In this document: positions 21,368 to 29,141 of the stretch, piece after piece
How positions within the stretch are numbered: the first letter of the stretch is position 1
Layout: the number at the start of each line of letters is the position of its first letter
Assembly (NCBI RefSeq): GCF_008124625.1
Contig: NZ_VNHM01000002.1
Span: 186,001 to 250,000 of the forward strand
Direction of reading: 5' to 3'
Origin: Desulfallas thermosapovorans DSM 6562
GTDB lineage: Bacteria; Bacillota; Desulfotomaculia; Desulfotomaculales; Desulfallaceae
DNA length: 64,000 nt
Position numbers and translations under genes: made by a program
Notes under the pieces: model-generated
Told to the model about the DNA's origin: nothing
Database searches by the model: none
The model's input: the letters and a program-made list of their open reading frames with translations, nothing else

Positions 21368-21444
21368 CATGTATATAAACTAAATTATGCCGCATTAAAT
21401 ATTTCTATATGCAGCAGTATATTAAAAAAAGGGGAAGAAAACTG

Positions 21445-22134
21445 ATGCAGGAACATCGTTCGCACGTCTACCTGGCCAGATATATTACCATAGCGGTGGA
21501 CATTGCCACCCGTATTGTACGGGGCGAATACCGTTTGGGTCAAAAGATTTTTGGCCGGTCCACACTGGCCGGTAAATACAACGTATCCCCCGAAACCATC
21601 AGGCGGGCCTTAACGTTACTACAGGAACGGGGTATCGTTGATGTCATGCCCGGGGTGGGTGTGGTGGTTAAATCAGATGCAGCCGCCCGTGAATACCTGG
21701 CGGATTATAATCAAAAAAAGGTACTGCTGGACATTCAAGAACGCTTAACAGAACTGCTTAAGGAAAGGGAAAAGTTAAACACTGAAATAGATCACCTTAC
21801 CAACCAGCTTTTGGATTATACTTTTAAAATGGCCGGGCGGCTTCAAAAGCTGGAGGAAGTCACCGTTCCCCCACAATCGCCGCTGCTGGGTAAATCCATG
21901 GCCGAGGCGGATTTTAGGGCCCGTACCGGGGCCACCATACTGTCCATTTACCGCAACGGTCATGAAATGGTTTCCCCGGAAGCAAAAACCACCCTGCAGG
22001 CTGGAGATGTCCTGTTAATAGTGGGGACCCATGACTCGGCCAGAATGGTCTATCAGATGGTCACCGGTGAAGACACACCGGCAGAGACGCAGGATTTGCA
22101 AGGAGTCAATCTGTATCAAAACAGCGATGTATAA
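21445..22134 (+). CDS. GntR-family regulator with RCK_C domain (BusR-like)
   Basis: The protein (229 aa from the ATG at 21445, with GGGGAAG about 8 bp upstream) has an N-terminal GntR winged helix (about 10-80), a coiled coil (about 95-140) and a C-terminal RCK_C/TrkA_C domain (about 145-215). This is the architecture of BusR, a cyclic-di-AMP-responsive repressor of betaine uptake in Lactococcus and Streptococcus. A betaine ABC transporter is encoded 3.5 kb downstream. Control of that transporter is inference; the domain order is what the sequence shows. Confidence 0.8.
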   Translation: MQEHRSHVYLARYITIAVDIATRIVRGEYRLGQKIFGRSTLAGKYNVSPETIRRALTLLQERGIVDVMPGVGVVVKSDAAAREYLADYNQKKVLLDIQERLTELLKEREKLNTEIDHLTNQLLDYTFKMAGRLQKLEEVTVPPQSPLLGKSMAEADFRARTGATILSIYRNGHEMVSPEAKTTLQAGDVLLIVGTHDSARMVYQMVTGEDTPAETQDLQGVNLYQNSDV

Positions 22135-22188
22135 TTTTTTTCATAATGGCAAATAATACTCCCAAATAACCAAGGGGGTATGTATATC

Positions 22189-22311
22189 ATGGGGTTTAAA
22201 GACCTCGAAAAAAAAGCCCGGGATTATGAAAAGCCGGCCAACGCCGGCCGCAAAGAGCTGGAGGAGCCGCAACTAACCGCGGTGGAAGAGCAGGAAAACA
22301 AAAACCAATAA
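22189..22311 (+). CDS. Small acidic ORF, 40 aa
   Basis: A short frame begins at ATG 22189 with AAGGGGG about 10 bp upstream and ends at TAA 22311. The peptide is very hydrophilic and rich in Glu, Lys and Asn (MGFKDLEKKARDYEKP at the start, EEQENKNQ at the end), with no membrane segment or cysteine. A strong terminator begins 6 bp after the stop, which makes a real gene plausible. I do not recognise it. The in-frame ATG at 22180 is too close to the ribosome site. Confidence 0.55.
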   Translation: MGFKDLEKKARDYEKPANAGRKELEEPQLTAVEEQENKNQ

Positions 22312-22317
22312 ATTATT

Positions 22318-22360
22318 AAAGAACTCCCTTAGCTTAATCAGGTTAAGGGAGTTCTTTTAA
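22318..22360 (+). terminator. Strong rho-independent terminator
   Basis: A perfect 14-bp stem, AAAGAACTCCCTTA (22318-22331) with TAAGGGAGTTCTTT (22344-22357), closes the transcript of the RCK_C regulator and the small ORF. Confidence 0.88.
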
Positions 22361-22576
22361 TAATGTTATCAACCATTGGGAGATGAATTATTACATTCCG
22401 GCGGCAATATATTTATGTCATCAATATTGCTATAATATAATGAAAATAAATTATATTTAGAAAATTCGGCCCAAGGGGGTGTAAATACTCTTATCTTTAA
22501 ATGTGCCCCGATTAATGTCCCTCAAATGATTGATAATAGATTAAATAAATAAATGCTTAGGGAGGAATGTTTAATA

Positions 22577-24523
22577 ATGCAACAAAAAAGAGTCGGCACC
22601 GGCCTAATTCCGCCAAAGGTTCAAAACTTCATGAACTGGGCAGCCGAAGATACTGAAGGCTTTTGGGGGCATGCTGCCGAAGAGGCCATGAGTGAAATCA
22701 AGTGGTTTAAAAAATGGGATAAAGCATTTAATTGGGAGTATCCAACTTTCCAGTGGTTTGTGGGTGGACAAACAAATATAAGCTACAACTGTCTTGATTA
22801 TAATATTGAGAAGGGCCGGGCAGGCCGTGCGGCCATCGTGGCTGAATCCGGGGAAACGGGAGAGGTAAGAACCGTTACTTACGCGCAGCTGTTTGAATTG
22901 GTTAAACAATATACCAGGGCGCTGCGTGGTATGGGGGTTAAAAAGGGTGACCGGGTGGCCATATACATGCCCACCGGAATTGAATCGGTGGCCTCAATGC
23001 TGGCCTGTGCCCGGGTAGGTGCCATTCATGTGGTTATCTTTGCGGGCTTTTCCTCCAATGCCGTGGCTGATCGCCTGCAAATATCCGGGGCTAACTTTAT
23101 TTTGGCTCAGGATGAGGGTTCCCGGCGGGGCAAACCGGTACCGTTAAAACCGATTGTCGACGAGGGTATTGCCAAATGCCCGCCTGAATTAATCAAAAAA
23201 GTGGTGGTGCTGAAAAAGAGCACCCAGCGGGATTATCCCATGGTGGCCGGACGGGATATTTTCTGGGAAGAATTTCTGGCCTTTGGGGAGGGGCAGAGTG
23301 ATGCCTGCGAAATAATGGACTCCAACGATCCGCTGTTCTTACTTCCCACTTCGGGTACAACCGCCAAACCCAAAGTAACGGTGCAAAAACATGGCGGCTA
23401 CCAGATTTATGTATACAGTATGGGCCAGTGGGTCTATGGTCTTAAAGAGAGCGATGTTTGGTTTTGTACCTCTGATATCGGCTGGATCGTTGGGCATAGT
23501 TACAATGTTTACGGTCCACTGTTGACGGGCTGTACCACAGTTCTCTATGAAGGAACCCCGGATTATCCCAATAAGGATATGTGGTGGTCCGTGGCCTCAC
23601 GAAATAAAGCCACTGCGTTGTGGCTGTCTCCCACCGGTGTGCGGGGATTAATGCGCCTGGGTATCGATGAAGCTCGCAAACATGATCTTAGCTCTGTGCA
23701 GAGGATATTCTGCGCCGGTGAAACATTGAACCCGCCGGCCTGGTCCTGGCTGCAGGAGCAAGTATTTGAGAACAGGATTCCCGTGATGGATCACATGTGG
23801 CAGACCGAGACTTCCGGTCCCATTTTCGCCAACCCGTACGGGTTGGGTATACTGCCCATCAAGCCGGGTTCAGCGCATGTACCGGTACCCGGCGTGGTGG
23901 CCGAAGTGCTTGATGAGAAAGACGGCAAGCCTCTGCCACCCGGAGAAAAGGGCGTTGTGGTCATTAAGAAGCCTTTCCCGGGATTGGTTTCCACGTTATG
24001 GAACGATCCCGAGGGATACAAGATGAATTACTGGGAGCGCTTGCCCGCTACCTCCGGAAAATATCTTTGCGGTGACGCCGCCTATATGGATGAGGACGGG
24101 TACATTTTCTTTGCCGGCCGCTCCGACGAGGTAATCAAAATAGCTGCGCACCGTATCGGCACCGTAGAGGTGGAAAGCGCGCTGATATCTCACCCGGCGG
24201 TGGTGGAAGCCGGTGTATCCGGCGTGCCTGACGAACTGCGAGGTGAGGTGGCCTGCGCCTTTGTGGTGCTCAAACAGGGTTACGAACCTACCGAGGAAAT
24301 GAGAAAAGAACTCATTGCCCACGTGCGCAATACTATGGGGGCCATCGTGGTTATGCGGGATATCCAGTTTGTGGGTTCGCTGCCCAAAACCCGCAGCGGT
24401 AAAATCATGCGCCGGGTGATGAAGACCCTCTGGATTGGTAAGGAACTTGGTGACTTGTCCACCATTGAGGAAGAAGCCTCTATTGCGGAAATTAAAGATG
24501 CCATTTCTAAGATGAAAGGTTAA
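22577..24523 (+). CDS. acs: Acetyl-CoA synthetase-like AMP-forming acyl-CoA ligase
   Basis: This 648-aa ANL-superfamily enzyme probably activates acetate or another short acid to its acyl-CoA through an acyl-AMP. The start at 22577 has GGGAGGAAT 10 bp upstream. Visible are the P-loop PTSGTTAKPKVTVQ (canonically SGTTGKPKG), the substrate-pocket tryptophan in MWQTETSGP, the hinge region GRSDEVIKIAAHRIGT and the acetylatable-lysine motif PKTRSGKIMRR near the C terminus. The P-loop and the AHRIG (usually GHRIG) deviations set it apart from textbook Acs, so substrate range is uncertain. It stands alone between two terminators. Confidence 0.85.
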   Translation: MQQKRVGTGLIPPKVQNFMNWAAEDTEGFWGHAAEEAMSEIKWFKKWDKAFNWEYPTFQWFVGGQTNISYNCLDYNIEKGRAGRAAIVAESGETGEVRTVTYAQLFELVKQYTRALRGMGVKKGDRVAIYMPTGIESVASMLACARVGAIHVVIFAGFSSNAVADRLQISGANFILAQDEGSRRGKPVPLKPIVDEGIAKCPPELIKKVVVLKKSTQRDYPMVAGRDIFWEEFLAFGEGQSDACEIMDSNDPLFLLPTSGTTAKPKVTVQKHGGYQIYVYSMGQWVYGLKESDVWFCTSDIGWIVGHSYNVYGPLLTGCTTVLYEGTPDYPNKDMWWSVASRNKATALWLSPTGVRGLMRLGIDEARKHDLSSVQRIFCAGETLNPPAWSWLQEQVFENRIPVMDHMWQTETSGPIFANPYGLGILPIKPGSAHVPVPGVVAEVLDEKDGKPLPPGEKGVVVIKKPFPGLVSTLWNDPEGYKMNYWERLPATSGKYLCGDAAYMDEDGYIFFAGRSDEVIKIAAHRIGTVEVESALISHPAVVEAGVSGVPDELRGEVACAFVVLKQGYEPTEEMRKELIAHVRNTMGAIVVMRDIQFVGSLPKTRSGKIMRRVMKTLWIGKELGDLSTIEEEASIAEIKDAISKMKG

Positions 24524-24580
24524 GAACCGTCACAACTGGTCGCCGGTTAAAGGGCGAAACATATTAATAGTTGATTAGGC

Positions 24581-24614
24581 CAAAAGCCGCTGTTGTTACG
24601 GCGGCTTTTGTGAT
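24581..24614 (+). terminator. Terminator after acs
   Basis: CAAAAGCCGC (24581-24590) and GCGGCTTTTG (24601-24610) form a perfect 10-bp stem with a 10-nt loop. The only T run is inside the stem, and it may work in both directions. Confidence 0.7.
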
Positions 24615-24639
24615 GCCAGCAAAGTACTCATTACGGAAA

Positions 24640-24800
24640 CTGAAAGTATAGCCAGCTGAGTATGTATTTCAAGCTTAGGCAGAGACCCTGGCGTATCCGT
24701 GCTTTCGAAACCGGGTTATGGCCTGACAAAAGGGATAATTTTAATAAATCTGGATAAGATAAAAAAGCCGCCGGATGACAAAAGGTGGTTTTTTTTTGCG
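24640..24800 (+). promoter_or_regulatory. Structured leader with terminator-like hairpin upstream of a membrane-protein gene
   Basis: The segment can fold into a helix TAGGC/GCCTG (24676-24680 with 24720-24724) enclosing ACCC-GG (24686 on) paired with CCGGGT (24711 on). About 40 nt later CCGCC (about 24769) pairs with GGTGG (about 24784), flanked by an A run and followed by nine T, which resembles an intrinsic terminator. The gene's ribosome site follows at 24827. The layout is that of an attenuator or riboswitch. I could not match it to a known class: 3' parts faintly resemble TPP and c-di-GMP riboswitches, but the invariant elements are missing. Confidence 0.45.
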
Positions 24801-24839
24801 AAAAGTTTAGCCAGGCATAGTTTTTTGGGGAGGTTTTAT

Positions 24840-25544
24840 ATGAACGAATGTAATCTCTCTAATGCACAACAATTTAGAAAAGTTTTAACTACCATGGCGA
24901 ATCGCATGTTGCGTAAAATGCTCAGGTTTATTAAAAAGCTTTTTATTTGCCTGCTCATGATATTCAGTCCCGTAATTATTTGGGTGATACTGTCTCTAAA
25001 CAGAGAATTGATTGTGATTATGGCTAATTGGGAGTGGCTTTCCAGTGCACTGCCTAGCCTATTTGATACCCTGGGGGAGCACGTCAATACGCCGGAATTT
25101 GCCAGGGGGTTTAATGAGGCCGCGCTGGGTGGGTTGTTAACACTGTTCGGTGTAATTGTTACGGTTTGGTATTACCAGGTGATCAGGGTACAGGAGGTCA
25201 CTGAAAAAAGGTTGTTTGTCATTGATGAACTGCTGGAGGAACTGAAAAAAAACCAGTCCATCGTCAATGACCTGGCAGCGGGTAATGGCGAAAAATATGA
25301 TCACCTGCATAATGAAACCGGGAAAACCATTTTTTTCACTGAAGCATGGCACAAGCTGGGTGGTGATGTTGCCCTGCTACCAAGGCGGCTTCATTTGCGC
25401 CTCAGTGTGCTGTATGGCTGTCTCAACCGGTGTACCGACGTACAGGGTTACTGGAAAAGCAAAGCCGCCATTGACCGGATAAACGGCATGATTTCGGACT
25501 TACATAAGTATAGAGGCAGCTTGAGCAAGCCCGAAATATCTTAG
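24840..25544 (+). CDS. Hypothetical membrane protein with two TM segments
   Basis: I do not recognise this protein. From the ATG at 24840 (GGGGAGG about 7 bp upstream) it has 234 aa. A basic N terminus leads to a first membrane helix (about residues 31-52) and, after an outside loop, a second (about 88-110). The C-terminal half, probably cytoplasmic, starts with a charged helix (VTEKRLFVIDELLEELKK) and includes one Cys-containing segment (LYGCLNRCTDV). The open frame continues upstream to 24699, but that part spans the terminator-like hairpin and is unlikely to be translated. It is monocistronic. Confidence 0.6.
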   Translation: MNECNLSNAQQFRKVLTTMANRMLRKMLRFIKKLFICLLMIFSPVIIWVILSLNRELIVIMANWEWLSSALPSLFDTLGEHVNTPEFARGFNEAALGGLLTLFGVIVTVWYYQVIRVQEVTEKRLFVIDELLEELKKNQSIVNDLAAGNGEKYDHLHNETGKTIFFTEAWHKLGGDVALLPRRLHLRLSVLYGCLNRCTDVQGYWKSKAAIDRINGMISDLHKYRGSLSKPEIS

Positions 25545-25611
25545 GAATTTGGTCAAAGGACCAGTTCAGAATTGAACACCGGATATACAGCTCAGGTGTA
25601 TCCCGGTATAA

Positions 25612-25637
25612 AAAAGGCGGCCTGTAAGCCGCCTTTT
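25612..25637. terminator. Bidirectional terminator
   Basis: AAAAGGCGGC (25612-25621) and GCCGCCTTTT (25628-25637) form a perfect 10-bp stem around a 6-nt loop between convergent genes. It can serve both the plus-strand membrane protein and the minus-strand opu operon. Confidence 0.88.
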
Positions 25638-25656
25638 AAGTGCACATTAGGACAGT

Positions 25657-26538
25657 TTATTGGAATTTGTCCTTTACATCGTTTAGTTCTTCTATGGAAT
25701 CAATGGTCACATAGGTGGGTACCACCAGGCCTATTTTGGCACCTTCCAGGTTGGGACCCAGGTTATCTACATTATCTTTAACTTTAGCGTAATAATCACC
25801 GTGGGTTAAGGGTAACCAGGCGGAAACGATAGCGTCAAAATCACCGTTGGCAATCCCTGTCCACATAACCCCTGCGTCCACGGCCACCGGTTCAACCTGG
25901 TAGCCTGCCTTCTCCAGAACATTTTTAACCAGGTGGGTGCTGGCTATTTCGGAATCCCATTCAACGTAGCCCAGGGTTACTTTACCCTTTTCGGCGGCCT
26001 CTTGTTCCGGCAACCATGCATTAACTTTGTCCTGGTTATTTTCAATCCATTTTTCGGCAGCTTCATCCGGGGTCATGCCGCCCTGGATATCCAGCATAAC
26101 CGCTTCCATGTCTGCGGGTGCCCAGTAAAATTTGTCCAAAATTTCATAGACTTCCGGCATGTCATCCTTCAAACCTGTGCGGGCAATGGTGGCAATCTCT
26201 TCTTCACCGCCGTAAACCCCCTTGGGGTCGTCCAGGTATTTTAGATCCCACTGGGCAAATTTCCAGTGTGGCGTCCATCCGGTTACTACGATCCATTCTT
26301 CATTATCAATAGCCCTTTTGAGGGATGCCGCCATGGCCGCACTGCTGCTGTCCTGTAGCTGAAAGTCCAGTCCATACTGTTCAATAGCTGCTTCAGTGGC
26401 ACTCATAATCCCGGCACCGGGCTCAATACCGACGATTTTACCTTTTGCATCGCCACCTCCGCCACCACAGCCAAACAGCACGCTTGTCAGCAGTACCAGC
26501 ACCACTGCCAGTGGCATAACTTTGAAAAACCTGCGCAT
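25657..26538 (-). CDS. opuAC: Glycine betaine ABC transporter substrate-binding lipoprotein
   Basis: This is the binding protein that captures glycine betaine or a related quaternary amine outside the membrane. The 293-aa precursor has a signal peptide and lipobox (LFGC at about 21-24) followed by a glycine run. The lobes appear in the order found in B. subtilis OpuAC, with GIEPGAGIM and TGWTPHW first and YVEWDSEIAST and AWLPLTH second; ProX-type proteins have the reverse order. Aromatic residues that cage the trimethylammonium group are in those motifs. It is the last gene of the opuAA-AB-AC operon. Confidence 0.93.
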   Translation of the reverse strand: MRRFFKVMPLAVVLVLLTSVLFGCGGGGGDAKGKIVGIEPGAGIMSATEAAIEQYGLDFQLQDSSSAAMAASLKRAIDNEEWIVVTGWTPHWKFAQWDLKYLDDPKGVYGGEEEIATIARTGLKDDMPEVYEILDKFYWAPADMEAVMLDIQGGMTPDEAAEKWIENNQDKVNAWLPEQEAAEKGKVTLGYVEWDSEIASTHLVKNVLEKAGYQVEPVAVDAGVMWTGIANGDFDAIVSAWLPLTHGDYYAKVKDNVDNLGPNLEGAKIGLVVPTYVTIDSIEELNDVKDKFQ

Positions 26539-26596
26539 TTTTTATATCTCCTCCTTTTTTATTAATCCCTTTTATTTAATAAATTGCCTGGTATAT

Positions 26597-27427
26597 TTAA
26601 CGGCTGCGCTTCTTGCCAAAGCCCTGGGTGATCCTGTCCAGTATAATGGCAATAATTACAATGGCCAGGCCGCCCTCAAAGCCCACAGGTATGTCCAAAC
26701 GCTGAATACCGCGCAGCACTTCTGAACCCAAACCACCGGCACCGATCATGGCGGCGATGACCACCATGGAAAGGGCCAGCATAATGCATTGGTTGATGCC
26801 GGCCATGATGGTGGGCATGGCCACGGGTAGCTGTACTTTGACTAATTTTTGAAACGGGGTGGCACCAAATGCTTCTGCGGCTTCCACCAGCTCCACAGGG
26901 ACTTGCCGGATACCCAAACCGGTAAGCCGGATGGCGGGCGGCATGGCAAAGACCACCGTGGCGATCAGCCCCGGCACCGCACCTGTGCCAAAAAACAGTA
27001 CAGCGGGAATCAGATAGACAAAGGGAGGCATGGTTTGCATGAAGTCCAGCACAGGCATAATAATTTTATGGACATTGTCACTGCGTGCCGACAAGATACC
27101 CAGCGGAATGCCTATTATTAGCGCCACAATGGTGGCCGAGATAACCATGGCCAGGGTATTCATGGATGGTCCCCAAATTTGTAAATCATAGATGAGCAGC
27201 AGGCCAAGGGATGTACCGGCGGCGGTTTTCCAGTTGGTCAAAAACCATACCAGGGGTATTGATAAGATGATGATCACCCAGGGAGGAGTGGCAGTTAACG
27301 CCCAGGCCAGGTTACCTACAATTAATTGTATAACCACAACAATGGCGTCAAACAGCGGCGTTAAGTTGTCGGTGGCCCACACCACCAGTGAATCAACCCA
27401 TTGCCCGATATGAAATTTAGGCAGCAT
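26597..27427 (-). CDS. opuAB: Glycine betaine ABC transporter permease
   Basis: The 276-aa integral membrane protein has about six to seven hydrophobic segments and the permease-ATPase coupling motif EAAEAFGATPFQKLVKVQLP. It belongs to the ProW/OpuAB family and imports betaine with OpuAA and OpuAC. Its start overlaps the end of opuAA by 11 bp. It ends 58 bp before the binding-protein gene. Confidence 0.93.
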   Translation of the reverse strand: MLPKFHIGQWVDSLVVWATDNLTPLFDAIVVVIQLIVGNLAWALTATPPWVIIILSIPLVWFLTNWKTAAGTSLGLLLIYDLQIWGPSMNTLAMVISATIVALIIGIPLGILSARSDNVHKIIMPVLDFMQTMPPFVYLIPAVLFFGTGAVPGLIATVVFAMPPAIRLTGLGIRQVPVELVEAAEAFGATPFQKLVKVQLPVAMPTIMAGINQCIMLALSMVVIAAMIGAGGLGSEVLRGIQRLDIPVGFEGGLAIVIIAIILDRITQGFGKKRSR

Positions 27428-28625
27428 CTGTTCCCTTTTCCCCCTTTCGGATCATGCCAGACAGTACGGACCCCCGTACAATAATACCCTGCAGGTAGTT
27501 TTGCTCGTTAACCACTGCGATGGGGTACTTGGCTTGTGCCACCAGCGGGATTAGATCCGCCAGCGGGGTGTCGGGGGATACCCGGGGGGTATCTTTCAAA
27601 ATAATATCGTCCAGGTTTTCCTTGTGCTCTTCAGCTGCCCTGAGGGCGTCATCCGCCATAACCAGTCCAATAAGTCGCCTGTCCTTGCCCACCACGAATA
27701 TGCTGGAGATACCGTTTTCCCGCATTCTGCGCATGGCGGTGCGGGGCCCATCCTTGGAGGTTATTACTGTATCGGGCTTTTTCATAACCCCTTCGGCCGT
27801 AAGTACTTTGGACATGTCCACATCTTCGACAAACCTTTCTACATAGTCATTGGCCGGGCTGGTAAGAATTTCCTCCGGGGTGCCGATTTGAATAATGGCT
27901 CCGTCTTTCATCAGCGCGATGCGGTCTCCTATTTTCAGGGCCTCGTCCAAATCATGGGTAACAAAAATGATAGTTTTATTCAATGTTGCTTGTAATGAAA
28001 GCAATTCATCCTGCATACCTTTTCTAATCAGCGGGTCCAGGGCGCTGAAGGCTTCGTCCATTAACAACACATCGGGGTCGCTGGCCAGCGCCCGGGCCAG
28101 TCCCACCCTTTGTTGCATACCTCCGCTAAGCTGATCGGGCATGCTGTTTTCCCATTCTTTCAATCCTACCACTTCTAAAACCTTGGTGGCCTTAGCCAGG
28201 CGTTCTTCTTTACTAAGCCCCTGGATCTCCAGTCCAAAGGCGACATTATCCACCACTGTACGGTGTGGAAACAGGGCGAAGCGCTGAAAAACCATGCCCA
28301 GCTTTTGGCGTCGTATTTCCCTGAGCATGTTTTCATCAACACCCGTTATTTCCTCTCCGTCAATGAGTACCTGGCCGCTGGTGGGTTCAATGAGCCGGTT
28401 GATGCAGCGCAACAGGGTGGATTTGCCGCTGCCGGACAAGCCCATTAACACGAAGGTTTCACCCTCTTCGACTTCAAAAGAAACATTATAGATGCCAACG
28501 GTGTTTTTAGTGGACTCCAGTATTTCCTCTTTACTTTTTCCCTCTTGTAACATCTTAAGGGCGCGGCCCGGATGGTCGCCGAAAATTTTAACCAGGTTCT
28601 TAACTGTTACTTTAGCCATTAGCAT
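27417..28625 (-). CDS. opuAA: Glycine betaine ABC transporter ATP-binding protein with CBS pair
   Basis: The 402-aa ATPase energises betaine import. It has Walker A GLSGSGKSTLL (about 62-72), the signature LSGGMQQR, Walker B VLLMDEAFSALD and the H-loop FVTHDLDEA. A C-terminal pair of CBS domains (about 275-395) is present; in related osmolyte transporters such domains sense ionic strength or bind cyclic-di-AMP. The ATG at 28625 and one two codons later share one GAAAGG ribosome site. First gene of the operon. Confidence 0.94.
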   Translation of the reverse strand: MLMAKVTVKNLVKIFGDHPGRALKMLQEGKSKEEILESTKNTVGIYNVSFEVEEGETFVLMGLSGSGKSTLLRCINRLIEPTSGQVLIDGEEITGVDENMLREIRRQKLGMVFQRFALFPHRTVVDNVAFGLEIQGLSKEERLAKATKVLEVVGLKEWENSMPDQLSGGMQQRVGLARALASDPDVLLMDEAFSALDPLIRKGMQDELLSLQATLNKTIIFVTHDLDEALKIGDRIALMKDGAIIQIGTPEEILTSPANDYVERFVEDVDMSKVLTAEGVMKKPDTVITSKDGPRTAMRRMRENGISSIFVVGKDRRLIGLVMADDALRAAEEHKENLDDIILKDTPRVSPDTPLADLIPLVAQAKYPIAVVNEQNYLQGIIVRGSVLSGMIRKGEKGTDAA

Positions 28626-28929: not shown

Positions 28930-28946
28930 TAAAAGTAAATAATATA

Positions 28947-29070
28947 AACCTTCAGGGACTGGTGAAATTCCGTACCGGCGGTGAGGATATACTATCCAAG
29001 CCCGCGAGCCCCACGGGGCAGATCCGGTGCAATTCCGGGGCCGACAGTAAAGTCTGGATGGGAGAAGGTT
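28947..29070 (+). promoter_or_regulatory. FMN riboswitch (RFN element)
   Basis: The conserved RFN blocks are present in order: AGGGACTGGTGAAATTCC with ACCGGCGGTGA, then AAGCCCGCGAGCC, GATCCGGTGCAATTCCGG, CCGACAGT and AGTCTGGATGGGAGAAGG. The closing P1 helix is AACCTTC (28947-28953) with GAAGGTT (29064-29070). It lies directly upstream of ribD and should lower rib expression when FMN is plentiful. Confidence 0.96.
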
Positions 29071-29141
29071 GTTTATGTCCAGCGGGTTTATATTGCCCCG
29101 GCAGTAGGGTAATATATACTTGCTTAAGTTTGTTTTTATTG

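Follow-up and report, generated by a model that had tools for sequence, protein, structure and literature searches.

A family-restricted terminator element, a putative transcription attenuator, beside a probable glnQ remnant upstream of a membrane-protein gene of Desulfallas thermosapovorans

The leader of a predicted membrane-protein gene of Desulfallas thermosapovorans DSM 6562 (genome of 2.96 Mb) comprises two things that had been read as one: the segment 24641-24732 and a separate short cis-element of the membrane-protein gene, 24732-24797. All positions are those of the window, i.e. the whole stretch of 64,000 nt analyzed here. Judged from sequence, the second is a real, short, family-restricted and gene-specific terminator element, and most likely a transcription attenuator private to this gene family. 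The first is probably what remains, in decayed form, of the 3′ end of a glnQ gene that stood between acs and the membrane-protein gene before it was lost. We consider it fairly probable that both assignments hold together. The candidate riboswitch that had been proposed for this leader is not supported. The features are listed in Table 1.

Table 1. Features of the leader and its borders (window coordinates; A2, alignment of 15 family leaders; R2, leave-genus-out model, see text).
Feature	Position	Strand	Basis
acs intrinsic terminator	24581..24610	+	24575-24615: -21.4 kcal/mol, z -4.9, 0/200 shuffles as good
Probable decayed 3′ end of glnQ-type ABC transporter ATPase gene	24641..24732	+	anchored DNA alignment, gene order
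Box 1, GGGATAA	24732..24738	+	alignment A2; R2 match begins at 24732
Box 2, GGATAAGAT	24752..24760	+	19 nt after box 1; alignment A2
Intrinsic terminator, putative attenuator	24761..24797	+	A-run, CCGCC/GGTGG stem, nine T's
Shine-Dalgarno GGGGAGG	24827..24833	+	read in sequence
Membrane-protein gene, 234 aa, predicted	24840..25544	+	ORF; ORF list gives upstream GTG start

The + strand carries, in this order, rpe, other genes, a GntR/TrkA_C gene (21409-22134), acs (22553-24523) and the membrane-protein gene. Located 3′ of the latter are OpuA-type glycine-betaine genes (- strand), followed by an FMN riboswitch (28944-29073) and ribD. The core of the acs terminator was also listed by a terminator pattern scan. 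The GntR winged-helix and TrkA_C fusion protein is encoded at a distance of roughly 4 to 6 kb from the genes for glycine-betaine transport, and its domain pair presumably resembles that of the c-di-AMP-sensing repressor BusR. The FMN riboswitch preceding ribD scored 118.4 bits (Rfam) and is also found in five of the 11 homologue loci searched (L007, L018, L022, L023 and L025). Screening of 22000-27500 for sigma-70-like promoters gave 13 sites against 7.9 expected. The best of them (24672-24645, - strand, TTGAAA-16-TATACT, 10 of 12) lies within the putative glnQ remnant and is directed at acs, while on the + strand no site reached 9 of 12 between 24523 and 24840.

That the leader precedes a gene for an unknown membrane protein, as the sequence-only reading had it, was borne out: the gene is real, and its product matched nothing in Pfam and NCBIfam up to E 1. 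Two hydrophobic stretches, distinguished by eye, are followed by a helical part. The predicted structure is all-helical (pLDDT 80, pTM 0.56), and a Foldseek search of this model against PDB returned nothing better than E 1.2. Matches of 19 family members to Pfam were scattered (best E 0.0081), as were those of the family in PADLOC (best 0.0015, each in one or two of 17 members). Homologues were identified in 26 of 100 genomes, own genome counted, and in 15 of the 16 genomes of the bacterial family to which the window belongs. The exception, G014, lacks both gene and element, and its genome is just 86% complete. The closest protein relatives among the loci are those of L003 (90% identity) and L004 (87%). 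Among 18 named loci, from which records very near the source genome may be missing, the closest proteins come from metagenome assemblies labelled Desulfoscipio geothermicus (82, 82 and 79%) and Sporotomaculum syntrophicum (79%). Across the order, many genomes have acs and ribD in the neighborhood of the gene. Among the matches listed, papers on Desulfotomaculum and riboswitches, and papers touching two or more of the subjects Desulfoscipio, acetyl-CoA synthetase and membrane protein, included no title on this gene.

The family leaders could be aligned over a common pattern consisting of GGGATAAAAA, some 10 variable letters, GGATAA or a close variant, an A-rich stretch, CCGCCGG, a loop, CGGTGG and finally the T-run; the exceptions are L013, without the GG of box 1, and L014, in which the T-run is broken. 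The boxes are kept across six genera. Within box 2 one G and the TA step are invariant, and GGATAA is followed by A instead of T in 12 of the 15 rows. A GC-rich terminator hairpin with a U-run stands ahead of the start codon in all 15 leaders, again with the broken run of L014. For three of them this was judged from the alignment and other leader data instead of the terminator scan, since the best-energy pick of the scan in L007 and L014 was another hairpin and the terminator of L015 lies beyond the scanned part.

A model built from the 15 leaders (R1) found a single strong match, placed ahead of the gene, in each of 15 family genomes out of 16 (E 2.8e-10 to 8.4e-6); as the model was trained on these sequences, the result is telling only in that no second strong match appeared. 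The runner-up (E 0.039) is the G006 element read on its other strand, and away from the element the best E is 0.08. An order-wide R1 search of 113 genomes, run at E 0.001 under stricter filtering at the cost of weak matches, returned the same 15 and none in the 97 genomes outside the family. The second model, R2, was built from eight leaders of other genera only, and within the window's genus it ranked the element first genome-wide in six of seven genomes, at 4.6e-4 for the genome of the window and 0.03 for G001. In the seventh, G004, the element came second (0.37 vs 0.33 for the first). On the window itself R2 scored the element at 43 bits vs 19 for the next match. When the leader was used in a DNA search of 100 genomes (E <1e-4), only the box-and-terminator part was matched beyond the own genome (G001, G004 and G003); weaker matches were many and short, among the matches listed. 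A pattern scan for GGATAA pairs found several in each of 16 genomes, and the pair alone is therefore not specific.

The hairpin with a nine-T tail, previously placed at 24764-24798, proved real, with a stem formed by 24761-24772 and 24784-24795 and a T-run at 24789-24797. For the segment 24760-24802 the folding energy is -13.8 kcal/mol (z -2.7), a value reached by 3 of 200 shuffles. With the collected homologous leaders examined for covariation, RNAalifold predicted the terminator stem alone (9 pairs, 2 changed on both sides, covariation term 0.08). The ribosome site reported earlier is likewise present, GGAGG standing 6 nt before the ATG (24840) by script count.

The sequence-only reading had drawn a compact two-helix element at 24676-24724 and seen in the whole the layout of a transcriptional riboswitch. 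The element is indeed drawable, and 24670-24735 folds at -15.8 (z +0.5), with 145 of 200 shuffles at least as good; the corresponding counts are 87 of 200 for 24640-24759 (z 0.03) and 49 of 200 for the whole 200 nt (z -0.73). Because shuffles fold equally well, the structure of 24676-24724 is at chance level. This region is missing from the two closest relatives, where only about 26 nt separate the acs terminator (L003), and 14 nt the acs stop codon (L004), from the conserved box; in others it is glnQ coding sequence. In six of the 15 leaders (L004, L005, L006, L010, L011 and L016) box 1 follows an upstream stop codon at a distance of only 5-14 nt, which leaves no room there for a larger aptamer. 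The statement that the consensus elements of FMN, TPP, SAM, c-di-GMP, c-di-AMP, lysine, glycine and cobalamin are not matched agrees with the Rfam scan, which gave zero matches in the leader at gathering level; at permissive level 24521-24860 gave sub-threshold matches only, the best (E 0.56) to the microRNA family mir-191. Neither a match to a curated aptamer nor a conserved structured aptamer upstream of an expression platform was thus found. What stands of the proposed layout is its attenuator part, not the structured leader, and conservation in relatives fails for the supposed aptamer alone, 24732-24797 being conserved. A riboswitch in which a ligand-binding aptamer at 24676-24724 controls the terminator would fit the usual placing of a terminator before a ribosome site, but given the chance-level fold, the two relatives devoid of the region, the Rfam result and the probable descent of the region from glnQ, we regard it as highly improbable.

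The putative glnQ remnant includes the two-helix element. In seven loci (L058, L059, L061, L064, L066, L068 and L069, the first gene of the operon being cut by the contig end in L069) genes for a solute-binding protein, a permease and a GlnQ-type ATPase precede the membrane-protein gene, and in L061 and L064 acs lies upstream of this operon, which gives the order acs-glnHPQ-membrane gene. In the window glnHPQ is absent between acs and the membrane-protein gene, and this difference in gene order argues for a remnant. Intact glnQ orthologues occupy the locus in seven of the 16 family genomes (G002, G003, G007, G010, G011, G012 and G013), and the glnQ stop codon lies 5-8 nt before box 1 in L005, L006, L010, L011 and L016. 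In L009 (same contig as L062) acs is followed by an in-frame C-terminal piece of glnQ directly before the conserved box.

When 24641-24732 was aligned at the DNA level to glnQ 3′ ends, backwards from the GGATAA box as anchor, the same-genus copies of L005 and L006 scored 37 and 34. Neither score was reached by any of 1000 dinucleotide shuffles, nor that of L006 by any of 2000 random window stretches. For the remaining glnQ copies, shuffles as good numbered 20 (L009 remnant), 34 (L010) and 23 (L016) per 1000, and L011 and L012 gave zero support; for L003 and L004, which have no glnQ there, the numbers were 90 and 541 of 1000. The anchored alignment has several gaps. In the unanchored alignment, the top two among seven glnQ copies were equalled by 16-19 of 500 shuffles and the other five by 115 or more. 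Similarity to GlnQ at the protein level was absent in any frame (last 60 aa of five copies; 186-261 of 300 shuffles as good), and nothing above score 24 appeared in the anchored-alignment analysis. If the segment is glnQ, its frame must therefore have been broken by insertions and deletions. A pseudogene is thus indicated by the alignment in place and by the intact gene in relatives, not by protein-level similarity, and the assignment draws on anchored DNA similarity to two same-genus copies together with gene order. The negative protein-level test lowered our confidence in the joint explanation and raised it for a promoter belonging to the membrane-protein gene, discussed below. A separate observation concerns 24619-24650, which matches sequence 5′ of the gene in L060/L067 (4-5 of 500 shuffles, stronger than the unanchored glnQ support); in L060 the match overlaps the 3′ end of a GntR/TrkA_C-like reading frame.

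The cis-element persists after glnQ, acs or a GntR/TrkA_C-like gene alike. With its pair of purine-rich boxes, its A-rich run and an intrinsic terminator close ahead of the ribosome site, it would act as an attenuator in the following way. Polymerase would arrive from upstream, by read-through from glnHPQ or acs or from a promoter inside them; most of it would stop at the hairpin, and a fraction would read on into the membrane-protein gene. This proposal is drawn from sequence features, i.e. the conservation, position and uniqueness of the element, gene order and, in six relatives, a space too short for a promoter between hairpin and start codon. Termination in vivo, the crossing of the hairpin by most transcripts and regulation of read-through by the boxes are what we infer from them.

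A different explanation is that the hairpin serves only as the end terminator of the upstream operon, the membrane-protein gene being transcribed from a promoter that overlaps the hairpin or the boxes. Where intact glnQ sits at the locus, the hairpin may simply end the glnHPQ operon, and the short distances from the stop codons of glnQ (five leaders) and of acs (L004) to box 1 would suit this. The A-rich and T-rich letters could conceal promoter hexamers, and TATAAT occurs at box 2 in L014 and L016. However, the element stays with the gene even where no glnQ lies directly upstream (the window, L003, L004, L007-L009, L013 and L014), which favors the attenuator, and acs of the window already has a terminator of its own. 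By eye no consistent -35/-10 pair was seen, and the A that mostly follows GGATAA does not suit a promoter. The T-run is separated from the likely start codon by 17, 24, 25, 27, 27 and 28 nt in L013, L011, L012, L010, L014 and L016, respectively, and in these six of the 15 leaders a promoter therefore cannot fit between hairpin and start, a further argument for attenuation. In the other nine the distance is longer, e.g. 130, 131 and 191 nt in L008, L007 and L015. The approximately 190 nt between element and start in L015, compared with about 25 nt in L012 of the same genus, look like an insertion.

The divergent layout of five Desulfofundulus-type homologues (L022-L025 and L027) also speaks for attenuation and against an end terminator. 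In all five, acs and the membrane-protein gene have a terminator between them, some 25-33 nt ahead of the likely start of the latter, though the upstream acs points away (for L025 the position of acs was taken from its locus L075). R1 finds these elements weakly (best E 0.065), and we claim for these genomes a shared layout, the homology of the boxes being not proven. In six more distant homologues (L017-L021 and L026) a clear terminator was not seen before the gene. On balance, a promoter of its own seems possible for the membrane-protein gene, though rather unlikely, and we retain the attenuator as the favored assignment. The same Desulfofundulus-type intergenic regions contain a strongly conserved block of about 60 nt, located some 140-230 nt 5′ of the aligned gene start and preceded by a small hairpin with seven T's. 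Rfam gave no matches to this block at gathering level in the searched loci L022, L023 and L025.

The attenuator may be refined by assuming protein-dependent antitermination, in which polymerase is allowed to pass once a trans-acting factor has bound both purine-rich boxes, presented as hairpin loops or single-stranded. The persistence of the boxes in six genera agrees with this, as does the pairing of the arms flanking box 1, which is better within than between leaders (173 vs a permuted mean of 155.6; 665 of 20000 permutations, p 0.03, weak). The RNAalifold consensus, limited to the terminator, does not, and a private site at one gene would be unusual for a trans factor. Hexaloop hairpins of the ANTAR type were rarer in the leaders than in shuffles (4 vs 7.7), none of the 15 leaders having two, and an ANTAR target with A at 1 and G at 4 of both loops was therefore rejected; no known antitermination target was recognised in the leader (Rfam, ANTAR hairpin test). 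This refinement is put forward tentatively, and it is similarly doubtful that boxes and terminator form a new gene-private antitermination element, in which a factor reading the GGAUAA boxes would decide the passage of polymerase into the gene.

Other candidates for the boxes were considered and rejected. Promoter consensus sequences for sigma-70, sigma-28 and sigma-H offer no spacing or consensus that fits all A2 rows by eye. A DnaA box within box 2 (TGTGGATAA) fits L003, not the boxes across genera, and the CsrA consensus fits only some rows. A leader peptide was dropped, since from box 1 to the hairpin the window offers none of the start codons ATG, GTG and TTG.

Attenuation by an intrinsic terminator is a known kind of element. 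Premature termination sites within 5′-UTRs are reported from 3′-end mapping (e.g. eLife 2021, PMC7815308), and they share with the element a terminator between upstream transcription and the start codon. The element differs in being known from sequence alone, in its conserved purine boxes and in its restriction to one gene family and one bacterial family. Targets of ANTAR proteins, described in PMC3369931 as two mini-hairpins with hexanucleotide loops bearing A at position 1 and G at position 4, are also short and placed ahead of a terminator; the tandem hexaloop hairpins are not found in the leaders here. With riboswitches such as the FMN riboswitch of the same window, the likeness is the terminator that the window's element has before a gene; the element has no aptamer, no Rfam match and no conserved multi-helix structure. 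As to glnQ and other amino-acid ABC transporter ATPase genes of glnHPQ operons, the supposed aptamer region aligns to their 3′ end when anchored, but unlike intact glnQ it would be decayed, with several alignment gaps and no protein-level similarity left.

These results remove a false riboswitch candidate and illustrate how the remains of a gene that has been lost may be mistaken for a structured leader. They also bring to light a short conserved element, missed by the sequence-only reading, before an unnamed membrane-protein family of Desulfotomaculum-type bacteria, where its use is probably to limit the amount of the membrane protein.
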